64,000 nucleotides of DNA, from NCBI RefSeq assembly GCF_033344935.1, contig NZ_JAWPMM010000001.1, forward strand, positions 2,962,001 to 3,026,000. The letters are read 5' to 3'. This stretch comes from Reichenbachiella sp. Lineage in GTDB: Bacteria > Bacteroidota > Bacteroidia > Cytophagales > Cyclobacteriaceae. The notes under the pieces are model-generated. The model was not told the origin of the DNA, ran no database searches, and saw nothing but the letters and a program-made list of their open reading frames with translations. The position numbers were made by a program, and so were the translations under genes. Of this stretch, positions 45,201 through 53,538 are shown one piece after another (positions within the stretch are counted from its first letter, which is position 1; every line of letters starts with the position of its first letter).

Positions 45201-45398
45201 ATGCTCCCCCTTGGAGAGTTGCTCCAATGTTTCCAAGATTCGTGACTTCATCTCTTCTGTCGCCTTATTGGTAAATGTAACGGCAAGTACCGTCTTGAAA
45301 TAATCAGGATATTTCAACGCCAGACGGATGTAGTTGTAGGTCAGAATGTAAGTTTTACCTGATCCGGCAGAAGCTCGATAGATGCTGAAGTTTTTGAT
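42279..45398 (-). CDS. UvrD/RecB-like helicase-nuclease, AddA type (non-standard start)
   Basis: ATP-dependent DNA helicase fused to a PD-(D/E)XK nuclease, used in double-strand-break repair. Superfamily 1 motifs in order: Walker A SAGSGKT (45351-45371), TFTNKATEEM, DEFQDTSGLQW (motif II), VGDIKQSIYRWRGG (motif III), TVHKSKGLQFKVV (motif V) and YVALTRAEEAL (motif VI). The C-terminal nuclease has RPDRVIV followed by IDYKTG. No ATG, GTG or TTG lies upstream of Walker A in frame: a TAA at 45411-45413 precedes SerThrValThr and then an ATC at 45396-45398, giving MKNFSIYRASAGSGKT, which matches family N-termini if ATC starts translation. The TTG at 45317 would delete Walker A. The partner AddB is not adjacent. 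Domain assignment is certain; the start is not. Confidence 0.85.
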   Translation of the reverse strand: MKNFSIYRASAGSGKTYILTYNYIRLALKYPDYFKTVLAVTFTNKATEEMKSRILETLEQLSKGEHTMSSDLQKELNITEGQLAERADALLRSILHNYSFFAVTTIDAFFQKIVRSFAREIGIQTGFKIELDQSKVISEVIDKMLLEMVDDPQLIRWLTDFAIYQINQGKSWDTRSDIKSLSNELFNEFLVQNKHEVFAQLSQENFIGGFIKSLNNKSKELVSGLKEIGQKIKLNLEGHGLTRDDFTYKAAGVGGYLDKVVNGEFAEPGKRVYDALEQGKWYSKGSDTGVAVDNAIADGLADLLSTAIDYYFKHNKEYQSLEQVIKYIYTFGLLSRISEEINNYRKDNDLLLISDFPVFLNEIINDSDAPYIYEKVGTRYKHYLIDEFQDTSGLQWNNFKPLIQDTLSAGNFSMVVGDIKQSIYRWRGGNWKILLDQIRKDIGESQIKDEGLSTNRRSKQNIVEFNNDLFNQAPEMLESHLGANHAEAIQANLNMKAAYHSSAQQLFDESGEGLINLQFYEKNNEIEDADEFVIEELVKQIKRLQDANYQLNDIAILVRTNPQGRKITEGLMEYHLKVGNDGYKYDVISNESLFIKNNPAVHLVLQSLTWIANTEQPLAISQLKYACQQYAERIGDHINVEELIVRADELTRMNLSQMVETLIGHFNLFSKPQDHAYILCFQDLVIDYLKYERDSLNDFLVWWADHDTRSIQVSEDQEAMRLMTVHKSKGLQFKVVIVPYCQWKLDHSGTNEQLLWCETNGSPVLEQIPFVPVRYKSDLSNTVFAQDYFLEKSDIYLDNLNLLYVALTRAEEALFILSQVNANSRGISHVGDILFNYAKEKALIQEGLESIEIGRLPAYSSYVEELLNRESLLPVSFSVPVDRVKLRHKARILEESVIESINYGQVIHWIFSLIQSKKDFTMALDKAQIKFGLSNEEMVDIKIKLREIWEIPQISGWFESSWQVKNESSILLTDGKLKRPDRVIVRSNKAIVIDYKTGARSESHLRQVSEYKSILGQMGYDQVDGYLIYLSEPGVLAVN

Positions 45399-45412
45399 AG
45401 TAACAGTAGATT

Positions 45413-45436
45413 AATGCTCTTCTAAGAAAGAGCATT
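45413..45436. terminator. Hairpin just upstream of the helicase-nuclease
   Basis: Perfect 9-bp stem AATGCTCTT / AAGAGCATT with a 6-base loop, in the 102-bp gap after the hybrid kinase. No T tract follows on the minus strand. It may end the kinase transcript or lie in the helicase leader: its foot is 14 bp from the suggested ATC start. Confidence 0.4.
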
Positions 45437-45500
45437 AGTGGCTTCTAAACAAAAAAGGTGACGATTAATTTCTTCGCCTCTTCTACTTAATCAGCTTAAG

Positions 45501-47288
45501 TTAAGCTTCAATCAAGTCGTTTCTTAATATCTCTAATTGTAATTTCTTTATTATCTTATTGGTGGTTTTCTCGACGTTCTTCAAGTGCTCAATTTTATAT
45601 TCATCTGAGTGATAATTTTTATTGTTTTTCACAAAGGATTGTTTACTTTCTTTCATCAAATGCATAAGCTCTTTTATTTCAAAATTGTTGATGCTAGAAT
45701 AAATTTTATGCCGCGTATTACTCAACTTTTCAAAATCATCTGTTAAAAGACCCGAAGAATATTCCGATATAAATTCTTCAAAAGCTTTAATAGAAAGCTT
45801 GAGTACTTTTTTAAAGAAATACTGATCTCCTTTAGCTAAATTTTTAATATATGTGAACTTCAAATCTGAATTTTGGTGTTCAAAAATTAGATCACTTGCC
45901 TGATTTATTATTTTTTGTTTTGAGCCATTTTCAGATGCTGGTTTTACGTATTTGGCAATTGTCTTGTATAATTCAGCAGGGTTAATTGGTTTTGAAACAA
46001 TATCATTCATTCCTGCATCATATACTTCCGATGATACTTCACTTATAGAGGCTGCAGTCAAAGCAACAATTGGCAGGTGTCTGTATTTGTTTCTAGGGAG
46101 TTTTCTGATTTCAGAAGTAGCAATAAATCCATCCATTACTGGCATTTGAAGGTCCATGAGTACCAAATCAAATTTTCCCGAGATTACTCTGTCAATTGCC
46201 TCCATTCCATTCTCTGCGAAGTCAGTAATTACCTCCCATTCAGTAAGAAATTTTTCCACTACTAGTCGATTAACGGCAATATCCTCCACTATTAACACTC
46301 TAGCTCCTTTAAGACTTAAATCTAGGTAGTTTGTAGATGTACCTTGCCTTTCTCTAATCTCTAATTCATTTGGTAATTTAAAGGGAAGTACAATTTTAAA
46401 ACTGGAACCAATACCCAATTCACTATTGACACTTATTTGACCTCCTTGCAGTTCTATGAGTTGCTTAGTTATGGTTAATCCTAGCCCAGTGCCACCAAAT
46501 TTCCTATTTATTTTTGAATCTGCTTGACTGAAGTGTTCAAATATTTGCTTTAATTTGTCCTCCGATATTCCTATCCCACTATCAGAAACATTGACTTCCA
46601 ACTCGATCATAGTCTCATCAATTGACCTATATTGAGCGTCTAATCTCACGGTCCCATTCATTGTGAATTTGACAGCATTACTAACCAGATTATTCAGAAT
46701 TTGAATAAATCTGGTAGGGTCACCGACCAAAAAATCTGGCAAATTATCTTCAATAGATTTGATCAACTTGCAATTTTGCTCGTTGGCCTTCATTCTCATG
46801 GATTCAAGTACTCCACTGATAGAATTGCGAATATTGAATGGCGTGGATTCAAAATTGACTTTACCAGCTTCAATTTTATTAAAGTCTAAGACGTCGTTTA
46901 TTATTGCAAGCAAATTATCTCCTGACCATCTAAGATTTTGGATGTAAGTCATTTGATCTGATCTAGGTGACTCATGCGTCAAAATATGACCTATTCCTAT
47001 GATAGCATTTAACGGAGTCCTGATTTCATGACTTATCATAGAAAGAAACTCTGCTTTTGCTTTCGTTGCCATTTCCGCTTTGCGCTTTTGCTTGTTAAGT
47101 TCTTCTATGATTAATTCGGATTCTTTCTTCTTAAATTTAATGTCCTCACTGAGCTCAAGTAACGCGACAAGCACCTCTTTGTACCTATCGTCTTTCTCTG
47201 CTTCAATCATTTGTTCAGTAACTCGGCTTTCTCCGTTTGCAATATGCAGGAGTTCGTCTAGCACCAAATTTTGAAAATCATTTCTCAT
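45501..47288 (-). CDS. Cytoplasmic hybrid histidine kinase (HisKA-HATPase-REC-Hpt)
   Basis: A 595-residue complete phosphorelay in one chain: an N-terminal helical region (1-75) with no recognisable sensor domain, HisKA with H87 (SMISHEIRTPLNAI), HATPase (NNLVSNAVKFT, DSGIGISED, FGGTGLGLTI), a receiver with phospho-acceptor D379 (LVLMDLQMPVMDG) and K433, and a C-terminal Hpt-like domain with H527 (NTRHKIYSSI). No membrane helix. With no sensor of its own, its input must come from a partner protein. It is the last gene of a run of six same-strand genes that includes two globins and a STAS-like protein, with 14 bp to the STAS-like gene. The output regulator that receives phosphate from the Hpt is not in the window. 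Confidence 0.93.
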   Translation of the reverse strand: MRNDFQNLVLDELLHIANGESRVTEQMIEAEKDDRYKEVLVALLELSEDIKFKKKESELIIEELNKQKRKAEMATKAKAEFLSMISHEIRTPLNAIIGIGHILTHESPRSDQMTYIQNLRWSGDNLLAIINDVLDFNKIEAGKVNFESTPFNIRNSISGVLESMRMKANEQNCKLIKSIEDNLPDFLVGDPTRFIQILNNLVSNAVKFTMNGTVRLDAQYRSIDETMIELEVNVSDSGIGISEDKLKQIFEHFSQADSKINRKFGGTGLGLTITKQLIELQGGQISVNSELGIGSSFKIVLPFKLPNELEIRERQGTSTNYLDLSLKGARVLIVEDIAVNRLVVEKFLTEWEVITDFAENGMEAIDRVISGKFDLVLMDLQMPVMDGFIATSEIRKLPRNKYRHLPIVALTAASISEVSSEVYDAGMNDIVSKPINPAELYKTIAKYVKPASENGSKQKIINQASDLIFEHQNSDLKFTYIKNLAKGDQYFFKKVLKLSIKAFEEFISEYSSGLLTDDFEKLSNTRHKIYSSINNFEIKELMHLMKESKQSFVKNNKNYHSDEYKIEHLKNVEKTTNKIIKKLQLEILRNDLIEA

Positions 47289-47302
47289 ATTGCCTGAAAA
47301 TT

Positions 47303-47725
47303 TTATATTCTGGCCAGGTTGATAATATCTAATACTTCTTCTTTACTGCTGTGAAATGTGATTAACTCAAAGTAATTTCTCATGAGAAGCTTTGTAGTTA
47401 ACCTTAAAAAAGTCTGATTCTTTGTTACTATATATGCATGCCGCAACTTATTTTGGTTTATATCAAAGAACCTTCGACATAGTATTCTTTGTATAGGGTT
47501 AAGCCTAATTTCTGAAATTTGTTTGATATCAAAAATGATATCAACATTGTCAAATTCAGAAACCAGTTCATCGAATTTTTTATAGAGTCCTGGTATCTTT
47601 TTCTCAAAAGTTTGCTCCGTCTCTGACCAAATCAAAGTATTACCACTTACCTTTCTAATTCGGCTTTCAAATTCATATTCATTTATACTTTGAAGTTCAC
47701 AAAAACTGTTTTCATTTCTTACCAT
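47303..47725 (-). CDS. STAS/SpoIIAA-like small protein, upstream of the hybrid kinase
   Basis: A 140-residue soluble protein with alternating strand-helix pattern: NVDIIFDIKQIS, then LRHAYIVTKNQTFLRL and FELITFHSSKEEVLDIIN, which resembles SpoIIAA-like (STAS) proteins, whose last helix typically ends in a DSEEEAL-type segment. No clear phosphorylatable Ser is placed as in SpoIIAA. The gene starts 55 bp after the preceding small gene and ends 14 bp before the hybrid kinase. It may be the protein that couples the cluster's sensors to the kinase. Fold assignment is by eye and moderate. Confidence 0.65.
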   Translation of the reverse strand: MVRNENSFCELQSINEYEFESRIRKVSGNTLIWSETEQTFEKKIPGLYKKFDELVSEFDNVDIIFDIKQISEIRLNPIQRILCRRFFDINQNKLRHAYIVTKNQTFLRLTTKLLMRNYFELITFHSSKEEVLDIINLARI

Positions 47726-47780
47726 AGCATTTTTTGTTTTAAACAGATCTTCAAATTAAATAATGGTATAACCATTAATC

Positions 47781-48011
47781 TCAGTAGGACAACCTTTGCG
47801 TAGATTCAAGAATACCGACTCCATACATTTTTTTAATTGTATCATGTACAAGTTTCAGCTCCTGTTTAGAGAACTGCGACTCAGCGTTGGGGTTTTCTAA
47901 TTCCTCTAGACTAAAATTCTCTATCTCAGGATATATGGCAAGTATTACTCTTAGCCAAGCCAATGGGGATAAATTCTTCTGAGACCATTTTTTTAATTTG
48001 ATAATCTTCAA
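47781..48011 (-). CDS. Small unknown protein, paralogue of the next gene upstream
   Basis: A 76-residue protein. Its first half (KLKKWSQKNLSPLAWLRVILAIYPEI) matches residues 15-40 of the product of the gene at 48065-48445 (KIKNWCIETFSSASWLIIISRCYPEL): K-x-K-x-W, x5, S-x3-W-L, x7, Y-P-E. The C-terminal helix (LKLVHDTIKKMYGVGILES) also matches IGVLNRCIMELYDCVIPEA. I recognise no known family. The tight spacing and shared pattern show that both are real genes and probably form one functional pair. Confidence 0.8.
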   Translation of the reverse strand: MKIIKLKKWSQKNLSPLAWLRVILAIYPEIENFSLEELENPNAESQFSKQELKLVHDTIKKMYGVGILESTQRLSY

Positions 48012-48064
48012 TCTTTATTAATTTTAGGTTTGGTTGGTACAAAAAAGCAACAGTAATATTCTTA

Positions 48065-48445
48065 TTATTCATTAAATAAATCAGTGAACCAATTAAGTGG
48101 TCGTTTCAATGTGTAAGATATTTTCATCCTGCCCGTCACCCTATCTAGCCATTCTATCTTAAATCCCTTTTTGCCTTCAAAATCGCTGCTGTAAGAACTT
48201 ATAGCTTCTGGAATTACGCAATCATACAGTTCCATAATACACCTGTTCAAAACACCAATATGATCTTCGTCAAACACTGTTCGATCATGAATATTGACAA
48301 TGGACACTTTTCTGTCGCACTCTAGCAATTCAGGGTAGCACCTTGAAATGATTATAAGCCAACTGGCCGAAGAAAAGGTTTCGATACACCAATTTTTAAT
48401 CTTTAAAGCATTAGGCTTTCTATTCTTTGGAAAATTATTATTCAT
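48065..48445 (-). CDS. Unknown protein, longer paralogue in the globin cluster
   Basis: A 126-residue soluble protein, paralogous over its first 75 residues to the 76-residue product of the gene at 47781-48011 (shared W, WL and YPE positions). It adds a C-terminal extension of about 45 residues (FKIEWLDRVTGRMKISYTL, then PLNWFTDLF) which looks like two beta strands and a helix. The start ATG overlaps the stop of the globin-like gene by 4 bp, so it is made together with that protein. No known domain is recognised; a protein-interaction role in the signalling cluster is inferred. Confidence 0.8.
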   Translation of the reverse strand: MNNNFPKNRKPNALKIKNWCIETFSSASWLIIISRCYPELLECDRKVSIVNIHDRTVFDEDHIGVLNRCIMELYDCVIPEAISSYSSDFEGKKGFKIEWLDRVTGRMKISYTLKRPLNWFTDLFNE

Positions 48446-48888
48446 ATTATCTGGGATTCAAATTCTATTTTTGATTCCATCGTTACAGCCAAAATAAGCG
48501 TCAAAAGTCTGTACCATGATATAGCAATTTCTTTTGTCCACAAACCTCTCAAAGTAGACTTCATAGCCTGTAGACAAGCTTTCATCACTTTTTGATCATC
48601 ACTCTTCTGGATATATTGATGATCATTAAAAATACTCTCCAAAGCTTTTTTAATCCCTTCTCTGGCCACAATCAAATTATCGAGAGAGGCGACCACAAAA
48701 CCCAATACGTATAGGGCCTTATCTCCCTGTTTGATAATTTCAAATTCGTTTTCGAATGACGGCACAAGAGAAGAATCTAAAGAATGCAGATTAGAATAAA
48801 ATGAAAAAGCAAATTCATGAATATTGGGAGCAAGCACTTTCCATGTTTCTTTAATATTTTTTCGCTCTCTAATATTGAGGTCTTTCAT
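48442..48888 (-). CDS. Globin-like protein lacking the proximal histidine
   Basis: A 148-residue globin-fold protein homologous to the globin gene just upstream. Both share TW/CW at helix A (ETWKVLAPN versus SCWQTVAPN), FYSNL versus FYDDL, the CD-corner Phe (F45), a distal Gln (Q54) and LGFVVASLD versus LGFLMANVD. At the proximal heme position (H81 in the neighbour) this protein has Ile86 in my alignment; the nearest His is H90, one turn away. It is therefore likely heme-free or binds heme differently. The stop overlaps the next gene by 4 bp, and it lies 39 bp after the globin gene. A role as a non-heme partner or sensor is inferred. Confidence 0.78.
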   Translation of the reverse strand: MKDLNIRERKNIKETWKVLAPNIHEFAFSFYSNLHSLDSSLVPSFENEFEIIKQGDKALYVLGFVVASLDNLIVAREGIKKALESIFNDHQYIQKSDDQKVMKACLQAMKSTLRGLWTKEIAISWYRLLTLILAVTMESKIEFESQII

Positions 48889-48927
48889 TTTTCAAATCTT
48901 TTCTTTGAAACCAAAGCAACTCTTGGT

Positions 48928-49362
48928 TTATTTCCAGAATTTCCAAGAAAACTTTTTCTTTGCCGATCCTTCAATCATCATATCTCCAACAGCGGAAATG
49001 AGTTTATTCCAAGCTGCTTCGTGCTCATAACTCCATTCATCATCCATAAACTGTGCAATGGCACCAACGAGGGCTTTTTGAACAGGTGGGTAATACTCTG
49101 GCAAAACCTTAAACTTCACATGTAATGCACCCAGTTTATGTATGGCATCTTTGATTTTATCTACCCTGTCCACATTAGCCATCAAAAAACCCAGTGTCAT
49201 CATCAGCTTTTCGGCTTGCTTATTCATGTCACCACTAAATAGTTTTCTATACTCAGGTTTTGCCTCAAACAAATCATCGTAAAATTTCATCGCCAAAGGA
49301 ATTGCATTCGGTGCTACGGTTTGCCAACATGATTTCACAAGCATCAACTCTCTTTCATTCAT
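48928..49362 (-). CDS. Single-domain globin
   Basis: A 144-residue heme globin. Helix A starts RELMLVKSCWQTVAPN; the CD corner has F42; the distal residue is Q49; the proximal heme ligand is H81 (HKLGALHVKF). The distal Gln and the LGFLMANVD segment are as in bacterial haemoglobins of the Vitreoscilla/neuroglobin type. The C-terminal ten residues are basic (SAKKKFSWKFWK). It is likely to bind oxygen or nitric oxide. It is the first gene of the cluster, and the region upstream holds two AGTATACA boxes. Confidence 0.9.
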   Translation of the reverse strand: MNERELMLVKSCWQTVAPNAIPLAMKFYDDLFEAKPEYRKLFSGDMNKQAEKLMMTLGFLMANVDRVDKIKDAIHKLGALHVKFKVLPEYYPPVQKALVGAIAQFMDDEWSYEHEAAWNKLISAVGDMMIEGSAKKKFSWKFWK

Positions 49363-49428
49363 ATTTCTTTTGTTTAATAAGTTTTGGGTAAATCTATATC
49401 TGCTCCACTATTGATCACTTATTCACCC

Positions 49429-49459
49429 AGTATACAAATGGTATTCATAGGAGTATACA
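49429..49459. promoter_or_regulatory. Paired AGTATACA boxes, possible operator
   Basis: Two copies of AGTATACA start 23 bp apart, about two helical turns, 67 and 90 bp before the globin start. Each contains the palindrome GTATAC, so they may bind two dimers of a regulator. Function is inferred from position and spacing. Confidence 0.4.
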
Positions 49460-49640
49460 GACTGGATATGATGGTTACAAATAGTATATAGAAGAGGAAC
49501 AAAACATCCCAAAAACAAAATAAAGGCACTTTTGAATTGATAGAGAAAATATAACATCCAATGATTGCCCGCGATCAATATATGGCCTCTCCATTCTTGG
49601 AACCTGTCGGTATTACGGAGAAGGCTACCAATCAACCTCT

Positions 49641-49658
49641 AAAAAAAGGCGAGCCTTT
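49641..49658 (-). terminator. Terminator of the TPR/LuxR regulator gene
   Basis: Short stem AAAGGC / GCCTTT, 35 bp after the TPR gene stop, followed on the minus strand by TTTT. The stem is short, so efficiency is uncertain. Confidence 0.6.
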
Positions 49659-49692
49659 GTAGTCAAAAGTATGCTTACAAGAATTTCAGAAA

Positions 49693-51537
49693 CTAGAGCT
49701 CTTGAACATATTTGTTAAGATCAATATGTTCTTGTAATCCTATCTTTTTCTTGATTCTATACTTGATCATTACTGCGCTTCTATTTTCAATATTCAAAAT
49801 TGTAGCAATTTCTCTATTGCTTAGGTTCAATTTGATTAGAGCACAAACTCTTTTTTCATGGTTCGATAATTTATCATTGAGGTCTGATAATTTTTCGTAA
49901 AACTTTGAATGGGAATTAGAAAAGTAATTATTAAAATTCTCCCAATCCTTCTTTAAAGATTTATTCATCCTAATGGTCTGAAGAATTTTGCGGTATTCCG
50001 GATCTCTATTCTTTATCATGATATCCTTGACTTGTTTTTCAAGGTTATCCATCAAATTATTCATATGGATCATATTGAGTGTCTGTTTATAAAGATCTGC
50101 TTGACCAAGTTCCAGATCATTTTTTAGTTTCATCTGCTTCACCTCTTCACTTTTCAATCGATTCTTATGACGATAAATTAACATTATGATTAGCAGAATA
50201 CTTACAATTACTACCCAGGCCACAACCATACTTAAGCGTTGTTTTTTAAGCGATTCCAACTCTTTATCTTTTTGGAGCAACTTGATTTCTTTATCTTTTT
50301 CTAATGTCTCCATTTTTGTATATAGCTCAGTTATCTTTCTCTGACTCTCCTTATTAAACAAAGAATCTTCATATGCGTGATGCGATTTTAGATAATATAA
50401 TGATGAATCCAACACTCCGAGTTGTTCGAAGGTTTTAGACATTAAATGTGTAATAATCGATGAAAATTGCCTATGTGAATATTGAGCAGTTGATGATAAC
50501 GCTCTTCTAGAATAGAATAATGTACTGTCATATTCCTGCTTTTCAAAAAACACTTCCGCTTTAATAATGTCAAATTGTTCTTCTACACTATTAATCCCTA
50601 CACTATCAGCCAGTTGTAAAGCTTCTGTCATCATTGAATTGGCAAGATCAAGCTCTCGTTTTAGTACATAATACTGGGCAAGGTTTCCTAAAGAAATAAC
50701 GGCCGTACTATAGTTACCAAATTTCTGTGCTGCTTCAAAGGCCTTTTTGTCAAAATAGATAGCACTATCTAGATTGTTCAGTTGTTTATATATGGTTGCC
50801 AGCCCATTATACTTATTCATTTGACTACGCCATCCATTTTTTAGATCTAGCTTAAGCCCGTCACGAAAATATTGAGCAGCCTTTTCCACATGCCCCATAT
50901 GTTTATAGCATAGTGCAATATTTCCTAATACAACTGACGCATTTAGTGACTCTTTGCTTTCACTAAGGTCATAAGCTTTTAGAAAATAGTCCAAAGCCTC
51001 AGAAAAATTACCTTTCATCCCATTAATACGGCCTAAGGAGTTTAGACAATGACGATACCTCATCGTATCCCCTTCTTGATCAAACATCTTCATTCCTCTT
51101 TGCAAAAGTCGTTCGGCTTCGTCAAAATTTCTTTTATAGATACTCCATGCTCCCTTGGTTAAAAACAAATAATGATATTTGGACTGAATGGTATCGCCAA
51201 ATAGATTGTTCTTTTGATAGATCTCTTCGGCCTTAGAAAAAAGGATTTCACATGAATCCAACTGTGCTTTGTTTAAATAATAGCTGGACTGTACTACGAG
51301 CGATCGGGCCTGCCCAAAATCATAATCTAGCTCAATACTCCTCTCCAAGGCATACTTGGTTAAGACTAGTACACTGTCGTTGTTGTTGTCTTGAATAAGC
51401 CTCGAAGCGGCAAGAATTAGAGAGTCAATTTGCTGTGTGGACTTGGCTTGACTTAACGCAACTTGTGCATTGGATTGATATAAACTTAAGAAAAAAAAGA
51501 AAGTACTAATTCTGAAATGATTTAAGTTTTGCTGCAT
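49693..51537 (-). CDS. Membrane-bound TPR regulator with LuxR-like C-terminal HTH
   Basis: A 614-residue one-component regulator in which an exported sensor part controls a cytoplasmic DNA-binding end. A signal peptide (ending QSNAQ, residue 25) is followed by about 350 residues of TPR repeats (for example GMKGNFSEALDYFLKAYDL and YKHMGHVEKAAQYFRDGLKL), a membrane helix at 436-455, a coiled coil, and a C-terminal helix-turn-helix (about 560-605: LSNHEKRVCALIKLNLSNREIATILNIENRSAVMIKYRIKKK), resembling LuxR/GerE output domains. It is on the same strand as the globin cluster and directly upstream, so it is a candidate to control it. This is inferred; no binding site is proven. Confidence 0.85.
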   Translation of the reverse strand: MQQNLNHFRISTFFFFLSLYQSNAQVALSQAKSTQQIDSLILAASRLIQDNNNDSVLVLTKYALERSIELDYDFGQARSLVVQSSYYLNKAQLDSCEILFSKAEEIYQKNNLFGDTIQSKYHYLFLTKGAWSIYKRNFDEAERLLQRGMKMFDQEGDTMRYRHCLNSLGRINGMKGNFSEALDYFLKAYDLSESKESLNASVVLGNIALCYKHMGHVEKAAQYFRDGLKLDLKNGWRSQMNKYNGLATIYKQLNNLDSAIYFDKKAFEAAQKFGNYSTAVISLGNLAQYYVLKRELDLANSMMTEALQLADSVGINSVEEQFDIIKAEVFFEKQEYDSTLFYSRRALSSTAQYSHRQFSSIITHLMSKTFEQLGVLDSSLYYLKSHHAYEDSLFNKESQRKITELYTKMETLEKDKEIKLLQKDKELESLKKQRLSMVVAWVVIVSILLIIMLIYRHKNRLKSEEVKQMKLKNDLELGQADLYKQTLNMIHMNNLMDNLEKQVKDIMIKNRDPEYRKILQTIRMNKSLKKDWENFNNYFSNSHSKFYEKLSDLNDKLSNHEKRVCALIKLNLSNREIATILNIENRSAVMIKYRIKKKIGLQEHIDLNKYVQEL

Positions 51538-52200
51538 TATTATTTTTTATGAATTAAGAAATAAAACGGATGAACGATAGATTGCATATCCAATTCAAAC
51601 AACGATATAGTCATTTGGAAAAAAGCATATTACCATCTAAATGCCCGCAAGTAAAAACAGACAGAAGTCAACCTATATAAAACCTTAACTCATAGCAAAA
51701 AAAGACAGATTAGGCTGGTCTCAATTACTCTGAATAGGCAATGATGTATGGTTAGATGGGCTTACTAAAAATAAGATATTTATATCACTACGACAAGGGA
51801 ATTCTTCTATGGAATGGTTCCATCCTATAGCAGTATTTATTTAATTGTATTCTAATAGTATCCCTTGAATTTTGAAGAGAATCATTCATGCTGCGTGATA
51901 TTTTCTTTGTAGCCTCAAAAAAAGGAATTGCTGACTAAATTCATGTAGGATATTGACTCAATCAAGTACTTGTAGACTCTTTGTAGACGTTGTTTTTTAT
52001 TTAACGATACAATTTTGAAATCATGCTCGATAGACTGAGAACCAATGGAACCAATAATTCGAACAATAACTAAATAATGAGTCATTCGAATCGAATGATC
52101 TCACCTTCCTTCATGACGAAGTGTACAACTTTAATATTTTCAATATCTACCGATGAGTTATTCTTCGCCTTTCAAAATCATTTTCGAAAGTTTGGTCCTT
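51538..52200. other. Gene-free region with a tandem TTGTAGAC pair
   Basis: This 663-bp stretch lies between the TPR regulator start and the adaptor gene's stop, both on the minus strand. It is AT-rich and has no credible gene. The sequence TTGTAGAC occurs at 51970-51977 and 51981-51988, 11 bp (one helical turn) apart, which is typical of a direct-repeat binding site. Confidence 0.5.
51970..51988. promoter_or_regulatory. Direct repeat TTGTAGAC x2, 11-bp period
   Basis: Two exact TTGTAGAC copies start 11 bp apart, as for dimer sites of LytTR-type or other direct-repeat-binding regulators. The target is unclear: the nearest start codon reading away from it is the TPR regulator at 51537, about 430 bp off. 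Confidence 0.3.
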
Positions 52201-53538
52201 TTATCTGCGATCTTTTTTTTCATCCTCTTTCTTTTCCTGAGCCTTTACCAAATCCCCCTCTTCTAGTTTCTTAGAAACCGCCAAATAAGGTCCTACAATT
52301 ACCTGATCAGCCTCAGAAACACCTTCTACAATTTCGATATTATCAAAATCACTAATTCCTGTCTTCACCACTCTCAATTCAGCCTTGCCATCCACATTTA
52401 CAAAAACCACTTCTTTTAATTCCTCGTCACGATTTCTTTTCTTAGACTCTTCCTCTCCATCTTTCTCATTTTTGGGAATTCGAGTGGTTACTGCTCCAAG
52501 AGGAACGGAAAGAATGTCACGTTTGGTGTTAGTTATAATATCTACACTAGCTGTCATTCCAGGACGAAAAGGCACTTTATTATTGGATACCAAATCAGCA
52601 TAAGAGCTGTTTAATATTATGATTTTCACTTCGAACTCCGTTACCGCATCCGCCGAAGCTTTTGCATTGGCCGTGTTGGCAATAGCTGTAACTCTACCCT
52701 TGAACTTTTTATCCAAATAAGAATAGGCATCCACATCAATATCCACTTCATTGCCTTGAGCAACTCTCACAATGTCATTTTCATTAACATCTACTCGTAC
52801 TTCCATATTACCCAAATCAGCGATACGCATCATCTCCGTACCAGCCATCTGAGAGGTCCCCACCACGCGCTCTCCTTTCTCTACATCCAGTTTGGAAACA
52901 ATTCCACCCATTGGAGCGGTGATAGTAGTAAACATCAAGTTTTCATTGGCTTCCTTCACCGTTGCCAGAGCACTCTGAACAACATATTTGGAGGCTTCCA
53001 CATTCTTTTCTGCAGATTTCAAATCTTGCTCTGCAATCTTAAAATTAGCTTCAGCCAATTCCATATCCGCATTAGAAATTGCTTTTGATTCATGCAATTG
53101 CTTCTGCCGGTTGTACTCCAATTCAGATCGCTTGAATGAAGCCTTAGCTGAAGCCAACCTTGCTTCGGCGTCTGCTAAATTGGCTCTTTGCTGATTGAGT
53201 GATGCCCGTGCACGATCTAAGGCAGATTTTAGATTATCTGGTTTCAAACGAATAAGCACGTCACCGACTTTTACCGAATCTCCCTCTTCTACATTTAGCT
53301 CGATAATTTCTGCTGAGACCTCAGGACTTATCTTAACTTCAACAATGGGTTGAATCATGCCAGAAGCACTGACCTTCTCCGTAATATCCACTTTTTTGAC
53401 TTCTCCAAAAACTACTTCGGTTCTTTCTCGTTCGCCTATCCAACCCTTCTTTTTTCCTATCATTAGGAAAACTATCAACACTACTGCTCCGCCGATCAAA
53501 CCATAGATCAACTTATTGTTATTTTTTTTCTTAGCCAT
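52201..53538 (-). CDS. Efflux periplasmic adaptor subunit (MacA/HlyD family)
   Basis: Membrane-fusion protein of 445 residues linking an inner-membrane pump to a TolC channel. An N-terminal membrane helix (about 8-26, LIYGLIGGAVVLIVFLMIG) is followed by a biotinyl-lipoyl half (GMIQPIVEVKISPEVSAEI), a long coiled-coil hairpin (LKSALDRARASLNQQRANLADAEARLASAKASF to SALATVKEAN), the second lipoyl half (TITAPMGGIVSKLDVEKGERV) and beta-barrel domains. The C-terminus is lysine-rich. It follows the TolC gene after 4 bp. The pump expected downstream (MacB-type ABC or RND) is absent; only a gene-free region follows. Confidence 0.9.
   Translation of the reverse strand: MAKKKNNNKLIYGLIGGAVVLIVFLMIGKKKGWIGERERTEVVFGEVKKVDITEKVSASGMIQPIVEVKISPEVSAEIIELNVEEGDSVKVGDVLIRLKPDNLKSALDRARASLNQQRANLADAEARLASAKASFKRSELEYNRQKQLHESKAISNADMELAEANFKIAEQDLKSAEKNVEASKYVVQSALATVKEANENLMFTTITAPMGGIVSKLDVEKGERVVGTSQMAGTEMMRIADLGNMEVRVDVNENDIVRVAQGNEVDIDVDAYSYLDKKFKGRVTAIANTANAKASADAVTEFEVKIIILNSSYADLVSNNKVPFRPGMTASVDIITNTKRDILSVPLGAVTTRIPKNEKDGEEESKKRNRDEELKEVVFVNVDGKAELRVVKTGISDFDNIEIVEGVSEADQVIVGPYLAVSKKLEEGDLVKAQEKKEDEKKDRR

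Follow-up and report, generated by a model that had tools for sequence, protein, structure and literature searches.

A globin, P3 and hybrid kinase gene cluster in Reichenbachiella as a candidate split heme-gas sensor

The stretch of DNA analysed here (64,000 nucleotides, referred to as the window) carries a minus-strand cluster that is, by comparison of related genomes, a real unit: its two globin genes, its P3 gene and its kinase gene lie together, with their order kept, in all three clusters that we found. Our preferred reading, to which we give about an even chance, is that the globins and P3 form a split cytoplasmic heme-gas sensor, which would control a dedicated hybrid kinase in trans. 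It builds on the conserved unit, on a kinase confined to these clusters in the genomes searched, on catalytic and heme-pocket residues that are intact, on purifying selection, and on the contexts in which P3 is found.

An acquired gene block and its kinase

Six open reading frames run on the minus strand from 49362 to 45501, and the layout of the initial annotation was recovered when we re-derived them, with spacings from globin1 to the kinase of 39, -4, 53, 55 and 14 bp across the five junctions. Judging from this spacing, the six are probably co-transcribed. The promoter motif TTTG-N17-23-TANNTTTG has no match in the window against 3.5 expected, sigma-70-like sites occur there at chance level (16 observed, 16.7 expected), and one terminator-like site was seen in the window, on the plus strand, against 2.3 expected. 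The features are as follows.

globin1, 48928..49362, minus strand: single-domain globin of 144 aa, probable heme sensor (Pfam Globin 62.6 bits; 3wfw; heme-pocket residues)
globin2, 48442..48888, minus strand: second globin, 148 aa, proximal His kept (3s1i match)
p3, 48065..48445, minus strand: 126 aa, long-form globin-linked P3 member, candidate adaptor (neighbour table, clade, dN/dS)
p4, 47781..48011, minus strand: short P3-family ORF of 76 aa with a TTG start, decayed in R. faecimaris
p5, 47303..47725, minus strand: 140 aa, putative STAS-like protein (sub-threshold SpoIIAA-like match)
kinase, 45501..47288, minus strand: soluble hybrid HisKA-HATPase-REC kinase with a putative Hpt-like C-terminus and a private N-terminal segment of ~60 residues
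TPR gene, 49693..51537, minus strand: Pfam TPR_12 at 75.2 bits, weak LuxR-type (GerE) C-terminus
acquired block, 45398..52210, no strand: missing between the corresponding flanking genes in the sister species G002

The cluster and the upstream TPR gene make up a block of ~6.8 kb without a counterpart at that site in the sister species. Genes inside the block have an overall GC content of 0.342, against 0.39 and 0.41 for the flanking genes, and the block is a small acquired unit. The TPR gene, not mentioned in the initial annotation, is gained or lost along with the cluster; its GerE match scores 19.5 bits, under the Pfam cut-off of 23.5. We considered it as a conserved partner, but the similar gene near the diverged R. 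faecimaris copy shares just ~24% identity with it and closer relatives sit elsewhere in both genomes, so it is kept as block content only.

The cluster was found in two of the eight Reichenbachiella genomes searched. R. faecimaris holds one orthologous cluster and one diverged second copy (globin1-globin2-P3-kinase). Compared with the R. faecimaris orthologues, five of the ORFs are under purifying selection, with NG86 dN/dS of 0.035 for globin1, 0.038 for p3, 0.076 for the kinase, 0.095 for p5 and 0.097 for globin2. Globin1 (94%) and p3 (93%) are better conserved against R. faecimaris than the flanking helicase (80%) and the kinase (78%). Since the second R. faecimaris cluster lacks p5, and p4 is decaying (stops in all frames in one R. 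faecimaris copy, an apparent frameshift in the other), both are dispensable and outside the core. Against the refuting conditions set in the initial annotation, the proposal of a single system thus stands for the globins, P3 and the kinase, but not for p5 and p4.

The kinase had been described as HisKA-HATPase-REC-Hpt. HisKA, HATPase_c and REC score above their Pfam cut-offs, whereas Hpt has no Pfam match; a His527-Lys pair, conserved in 3/3, is compatible with Hpt and presumably resembles the Hpt motif. The phospho-acceptor residues His87 and Asp379 are present, and the absence of a membrane helix was borne out (highest 19-residue Kyte-Doolittle mean 1.21). Among 196 family genomes, the kinase with the private N-terminal segment was found only in the three clusters. 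In this survey, which scored six candidates per genome and can miss weaker members, 15 kinase matches passed E 1e-135: three exceed 1100 bits, span the N-terminus and lie inside clusters, and the other 12 reach at most 478.6 bits, with alignments starting at position 58-62. Deeper kinase scoring in 19 genomes gave the same exclusivity.

The neighbourhood check suggested in the initial annotation gave a divided answer. The kinase with the private N-terminus is found with the globins only, but beyond Reichenbachiella some P3-globin pairs have no kinase next to them (L032, L033), and another pair (L034) is flanked by kinases on the opposite strand. Because P3-globin occurs outside the genus without this kinase, the wider conserved core is P3-globin, with the kinase a property of this lineage.

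The globins and the P3 family

The assignment of globin1 as a globin was upheld by its Pfam score (cut-off 22 bits) and an invariant His81, and its closest solved chain is HGbRL (3wfw, E 1.7e-19). Globin2 has no Pfam match, and HGbI (3s1i) aligns with it at E 3.5e-9 with Tyr, Gln and His. Its earlier description as histidine-less was wrong: the His aligned with F8 is invariant in 6/6 and in 14/14 globins, and aligns with the His of HGbI. The heme-pocket Tyr, Gln and His are invariant across all 14 globins aligned; those reported for HGb-I include Tyr29 (B10) and Gln50 (E7) (PMC11203436). Given these pocket residues, both globins probably bind heme. The STAS-like label of p5 fared less well, as its Pfam SpoIIAA-like match reaches only 13.7 bits against a cut-off of 25. 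No PDB sequence matches p5 at E 1, and at E 0.01 matches occur in four of 118 order genomes, including this one, the other three being weak (3.1e-4 to 3.9e-3).

The two proteins noted previously as paralogous unknowns, p3 and p4, are indeed related, both belonging to P3, an unannotated family of ~75 residues without a Pfam or NCBIfam match. When 16 members were searched against Pfam at E up to 10, just four families appeared, all at chance level (best E 0.041). Among 59 distinct P3 genes, 16 come directly after a gene for a REC-PP2C protein, 13 lie ahead of one for a V4R-like protein, six touch a globin gene, two are fused (PP2C, V4R-like) and 22 have other contexts, the globin, SpoIIE and V4R profiles used for these counts having been built partly from the very loci counted. 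Pfam SpoIIE scores above its cut-off in the neighbours at L035, L037 and L085 and below it at L038; Pfam V4R falls below its cut-off at L088 and L092 and has no match at L157. The table leaves out L043, L044 and L065, which are false or partial matches, L060 and L061, which are closely related to L091 and L092, and G109:C91, and counts L031 and L076, a single contig, once. The surveys scored 12 or 11 candidates per genome, so that weaker members can be missed, and in the 11-genome match set the G162 and G185 matches sit within longer unrelated ORFs and look false. In all eight genus genomes, this one included (L075), a P3 gene lies directly downstream of a REC-SpoIIE (PP2C) gene.

In a tree built on 79 columns only, all six P3s linked to globins group together in a single clade, with support of 95/94 and recovery in 92% of 200 bootstrap trees. 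A simple tandem duplication of p3 and p4 is not favoured, since p3 falls in this clade and p4 elsewhere: its branch is long, and it groups weakly (91/67) with the genus's eight PP2C-linked P3s and with three tandem P3s from another family.

A relationship between P3 and the H-NOX N-terminal subdomain was also considered. Among 50 Foldseek matches listed for a first P3 model (pLDDT 76.8), 12 were H-NOX, all weak, and the best of any kind had E 0.63. A short-P3 model (pLDDT 93.9) gave 28 rows, with five H-NOX or guanylate cyclases, seven acyl or alanyl carrier proteins and none below E 2.9; the best H-NOX row had E 5.5 and TM 0.49. Profiles were compared by hhalign using 31 H-NOX sequences; the controls were 100 profiles with shuffled columns, one reversed profile and eight further families. 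The local score of 12.6 lay within the shuffles, of which at least 5/100 reached 13.6 or more, and SiaB scored 15.1. The global score of 11.2 exceeded all 100 shuffles (largest 9.2) but paired P3 residues 55-79 with H-NOX residues 1-29, which is the wrong register. In view of the local score, the register and the weak Foldseek rows, the H-NOX idea was dropped as unproven.

Proposed mechanism and its alternatives

We propose that an acquired cytoplasmic module of separate proteins signals heme-gas state. Globin1 and globin2, perhaps joined in a heteromer, would bind heme and serve as the sensors of O2 or NO. P3, a small helical domain encoded beside the globins, would be the coupling adaptor; elsewhere in the Bacteroidia its relatives accompany other proteins that are regulated or sensory (REC-PP2C, V4R-like), either as neighbouring genes or as fusions. 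The globin state would pass through P3 to the private N-terminal segment of the sensor-less hybrid kinase, and phosphate could then move from His87 by way of Asp379 to His527 and on to a response regulator encoded elsewhere, with p5 and p4 as lineage-specific extras. We infer that the globins bind heme, which ligand they sense, which proteins touch, which way control runs, how phosphate travels and what the output is.

Some observations run against the split sensor. The stronger conservation of globin1 and p3 also fits a kinase-independent globin-P3 function, and besides the P3-globin pairs that lack an adjacent kinase, of the 16 single-domain globin loci that were examined in the family, 13 lack a kinase gene on the same strand within 500 bp. 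Globin and P3 might accordingly stand by themselves with another target, such as a partner-switching or PP2C pathway, the kinase being a block neighbour that answers to something else. The REC-PP2C or V4R-like genes tied to most P3 relatives, and the weak grouping of p4 with PP2C-linked P3s, also favour such an arrangement. We nevertheless think it unlikely, although it is the strongest competitor, as the window and both R. faecimaris clusters retain the kinase with the private N-terminus, which was seen nowhere else in the 196 genomes.

We give rather less credence to the globins working on O2 or NO chemically, through storage, NO dioxygenation or detoxification, under the control of the kinase and regulators of the block rather than as their input. 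Flavohemoprotein is the nearest NCBIfam profile for both globins, below cut-off, the heme pocket looks capable of binding O2, and the frequent lack of a kinase beside single-domain globins fits here too. Yet the block holds no reductase gene, two diverged globins are retained beside P3 and a kinase without a sensor domain, and P3 would be left unexplained. It seems more improbable still, and by some distance, that the globins relay a non-gas signal (lipid, pH or redox) to the kinase: heme coordination in HGb-I, a close solved relative by sequence match, is described as shifting upon lipid binding (PMC11203436), but the pocket residues here suit ordinary ligand binding.

Beyond the split sensor itself, we tentatively put forward, as a possibility short of probable, that P3 is an unrecognised Bacteroidota signal-coupling domain serving various sensors and regulators (REC-PP2C, V4R-like, globins), and that in its globin version paired free-standing heme globins and P3 regulate a sensor-less hybrid kinase in trans. 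Our literature searches found no description of such a globin pair with P3 and a trans-regulated kinase. If true, globins would join H-NOX and NosP as heme proteins controlling hybrid kinases in trans, and P3 would be a marker for modules of sensory or PP2C type in Bacteroidia. From the clade of globin-linked P3s it is predicted that P3 binds globin here and a REC-PP2C protein elsewhere, even in one genome. With few, soluble parts, the system should be feasible to rebuild in the test tube.

Comparison with known systems

The logic proposed is that of H-NOX and NosP, described as stand-alone heme proteins that regulate a histidine kinase, sometimes hybrid, in trans (PMC8738867), except that globins together with P3 would take the sensor's place here. 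PF07700 (HNOB) is absent from the cluster proteins, its best score in the genome being 11.9 bits (cut-off 25.5), and no FIST match, as for NosP, was found among the seven proteins scanned. Globin-coupled sensors such as AfGcHK (PMC8697598) likewise feed a globin input to a histidine kinase, but there the globin is fused to the kinase, whereas here the ORFs are separate, the kinase has no globin match, and a second globin and P3 are added.

In the O2-sensing stressosome of Vibrio brasiliensis, a heme globin is tied to STAS and kinase signalling (PMC4976288), as may be the case here. Globin and STAS share one protein there (RsbR, with RsbS and RsbT); our cluster has no sensor-STAS fusion, its globins and the doubtful, sub-threshold p5 are separate, and its kinase is a hybrid histidine kinase of the HisKA type. 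HGbRL of Methylacidiphilum infernorum, the protein closest to globin1 among solved chains, was put forward as a putative globin-coupled sensor by those who described it (PMC4476040); its globin is fused to a Roadblock/LC7 domain, which has no equivalent here. A further comparison is with the REC-SpoIIE (PP2C) regulators of the same bacterial family, where a short P3 gene sits directly downstream, much as P3 adjoins the globins in our cluster, although its neighbour there is a phosphorylatable REC-PP2C protein and not a globin.

Gene content and conservation of the cluster

The window covers positions 2,962,001–3,026,000 of the host genome, a single contig of 4.88 Mb. The initial annotation described six minus-strand open reading frames running from 49362 to 45501 (globin1, globin2, p3, p4, p5 and a hybrid kinase), and we reproduced both the frames and their gaps. 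Pfam matched globin1 to Globin, gave the kinase the domain order HisKA-HATPase-REC, placed a SpoIIAA-like match to p5 below threshold, and matched nothing in globin2, p3 or p4. In NCBIfam, both globins showed flavohemoprotein similarity below the cut-off, and nothing convincing was found for the remaining cluster proteins.

The cluster is a real, conserved yet patchily distributed signalling unit. The syntenic copy in R. faecimaris has identities of 94% (globin1), 82% (globin2), 93% (p3), 84% (p5) and 78% (kinase), with p4 broken in every frame; a second copy at another site carries globin1, globin2, p3, p4 (apparently frameshifted) and the kinase, without p5. The proposal of a single unit thus held up in the neighbourhood comparison, where the cluster genes stay together in both copies, with p4 and p5 varying. 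Against the R. faecimaris orthologues, dN/dS for the five genes other than p4 is 0.035–0.097 (NG86). We scored six candidates in each of 196 family genomes; 14 of these genomes contributed 15 kinase matches passing the E 1e-135 threshold. Three cover the N-terminus, each above 1100 bits and all within these clusters; the other 12 start at position 58–62 and reach at most 478.6 bits. Deeper scoring of up to 70 candidates in 19 genomes again separated the three cluster kinases, all at E 2.7e-189 or better, from the next match at 1.0e-118.

The second R. faecimaris cluster is followed, 10 bp past its kinase, by a LytTR gene (L010:5568-6158). Pfam did not find a receiver domain in the LytTR protein, which is a candidate output of that cluster.

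The cluster belongs to a variable block. Compared with the sister species G002, whose helicase is 73% identical to that of the window, the alignable flank stops at 45398 and picks up again at 52210, and the two genes flanking the block are only 396 bp apart in G002. Five further genomes of the genus were also compared, and none has such a cluster in the 14–16 kb around its helicase. GC content is 0.342 in both the cluster and the upstream TPR gene (49693..51537, minus strand), against 0.39 and 0.41 in the flanking genes; globin1 by itself is at 0.39. The low GC, together with the presence of the cluster and its globin-linked P3 in two of the eight genus genomes searched, leads us to favour, tentatively, gain of the block over loss.

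The P3 family

p3, p4 and a set of short proteins share a domain of ~75 residues, a family that the initial annotation missed and that is more interesting than the supposed histidine-less globin. Counting this genome, P3 occurs in 11 of 148 genomes in the family (two of them apparently false), 21 of 390 in the order and 7 of 395 in the class, and the short form in all eight genus genomes searched. The predicted structure of a short member is confident (pLDDT 93.9, pTM 0.82) and largely helical; comparison with solved structures gave no significant match.

The 61 rows of our neighbour table represent 59 distinct P3 genes. A same-strand REC-SpoIIE (PP2C) gene lies directly upstream of 16, a V4R-like gene (417–455 aa) directly downstream of 13, and six touch a globin gene; 22 have other contexts, among them nine tandem pairs (18 genes) and p4 with its R. 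faecimaris counterpart. Each of two fusions is the only one of its kind among the 59: a 379-aa protein joining P3 to a SpoIIE/PP2C phosphatase domain (L085:5074-6213), and a fusion of P3 with a V4R-like protein (L088). In a tree of just 79 columns, the six globin-linked members group as a single clade with support of 95/94, recovered in 92% of 200 bootstrap trees. A REC-SpoIIE gene also precedes a short P3 in this genome, with genes for a histidine kinase and a DUF6272 protein alongside; of the names SiaB, SiaC and DUF6272, only the last is a database match.

The V4R-like protein looks like a further uncharacterised sensor paired with P3. An HCH(H/Y)YN-type motif is present in those following P3 (L156-L161, L089, L091-L094), and in the L088 fusion; these V4R-like proteins measure about 420–436 aa.

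Globins and kinases at other loci

From 17 single-domain globin regions fetched, the globin frame was recovered in 16. Three (L135, L138, L142) have a same-strand histidine kinase within 500 bp and 13 have none; at L145 and L143 the same-strand neighbour within that distance is a TPR-SpoIIE protein and a TPR-LuxR-type gene, respectively. Since these genomes carry dozens of kinase matches each, any enrichment of globin-kinase adjacency would be mild at most.

L142 also carries an H-NOX gene (122.6 bits). It and the globin lie on the same strand in a single run flanked by two histidine kinases (L142:3841-10457), perhaps as two heme sensors within one pathway. At L147, L148 and L149, in three genomes and judged by eye from sequence starts, a single-domain globin adjoins a glutamyl-tRNA-reductase-looking gene, with a flavin-reductase-looking gene nearby. 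Three proteins of 439–447 aa have a C-terminal globin:

L152:6472-7815, an unusual globin-linked cyclase, with 2Fe-2S, adenylate/guanylate cyclase and globin domains by Pfam
L153:7658-9001, C-terminal globin protein
L154:7177-8496, C-terminal globin protein

Proposed signalling and heme pockets

In the simplest mechanism proposed, the globins would sense O2 or NO, P3 would link their state to the kinase N-terminus, and the kinase would pass phosphate via REC and then an Hpt-like part to an unlinked regulator. We put the chance that globins and P3 control the kinase at about even. What the genomes show is that the genes are conserved and under selection, that among the genomes searched the kinase is exclusive to these clusters, that key residues are intact, and in which contexts P3 occurs; every biochemical step is inferred. 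A globin-P3 function apart from the kinase also fits: P3-globin pairs occur without this kinase at L032 and L033, and globin1 and p3 are more conserved than the kinase, which counts against kinase control and agrees with a separate role. None of the titles and abstract openings listed from the open-licence literature describes such an arrangement.

Both globins probably bind heme, as suggested by conserved pocket residues, the retained His and the alignment to HGbI. The initial annotation had called globin2 histidine-less, which is incorrect: all of the three globin1 and three globin2 sequences aligned carry the His found at position 81 of globin1, and Phe-Tyr, Gln and His are among the invariant columns of 14 single-domain globins. 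In the match of globin2 to HGbI (3s1i; E 3.5e-9), the Tyr, Gln and His line up, and we transferred the B10 and E7 positions of HGb-I to the cluster globins by alignment. In HGb-I itself, Tyr29 (B10) and Gln50 (E7) form hydrogen bonds to the bound ligand, according to PMC11203436.
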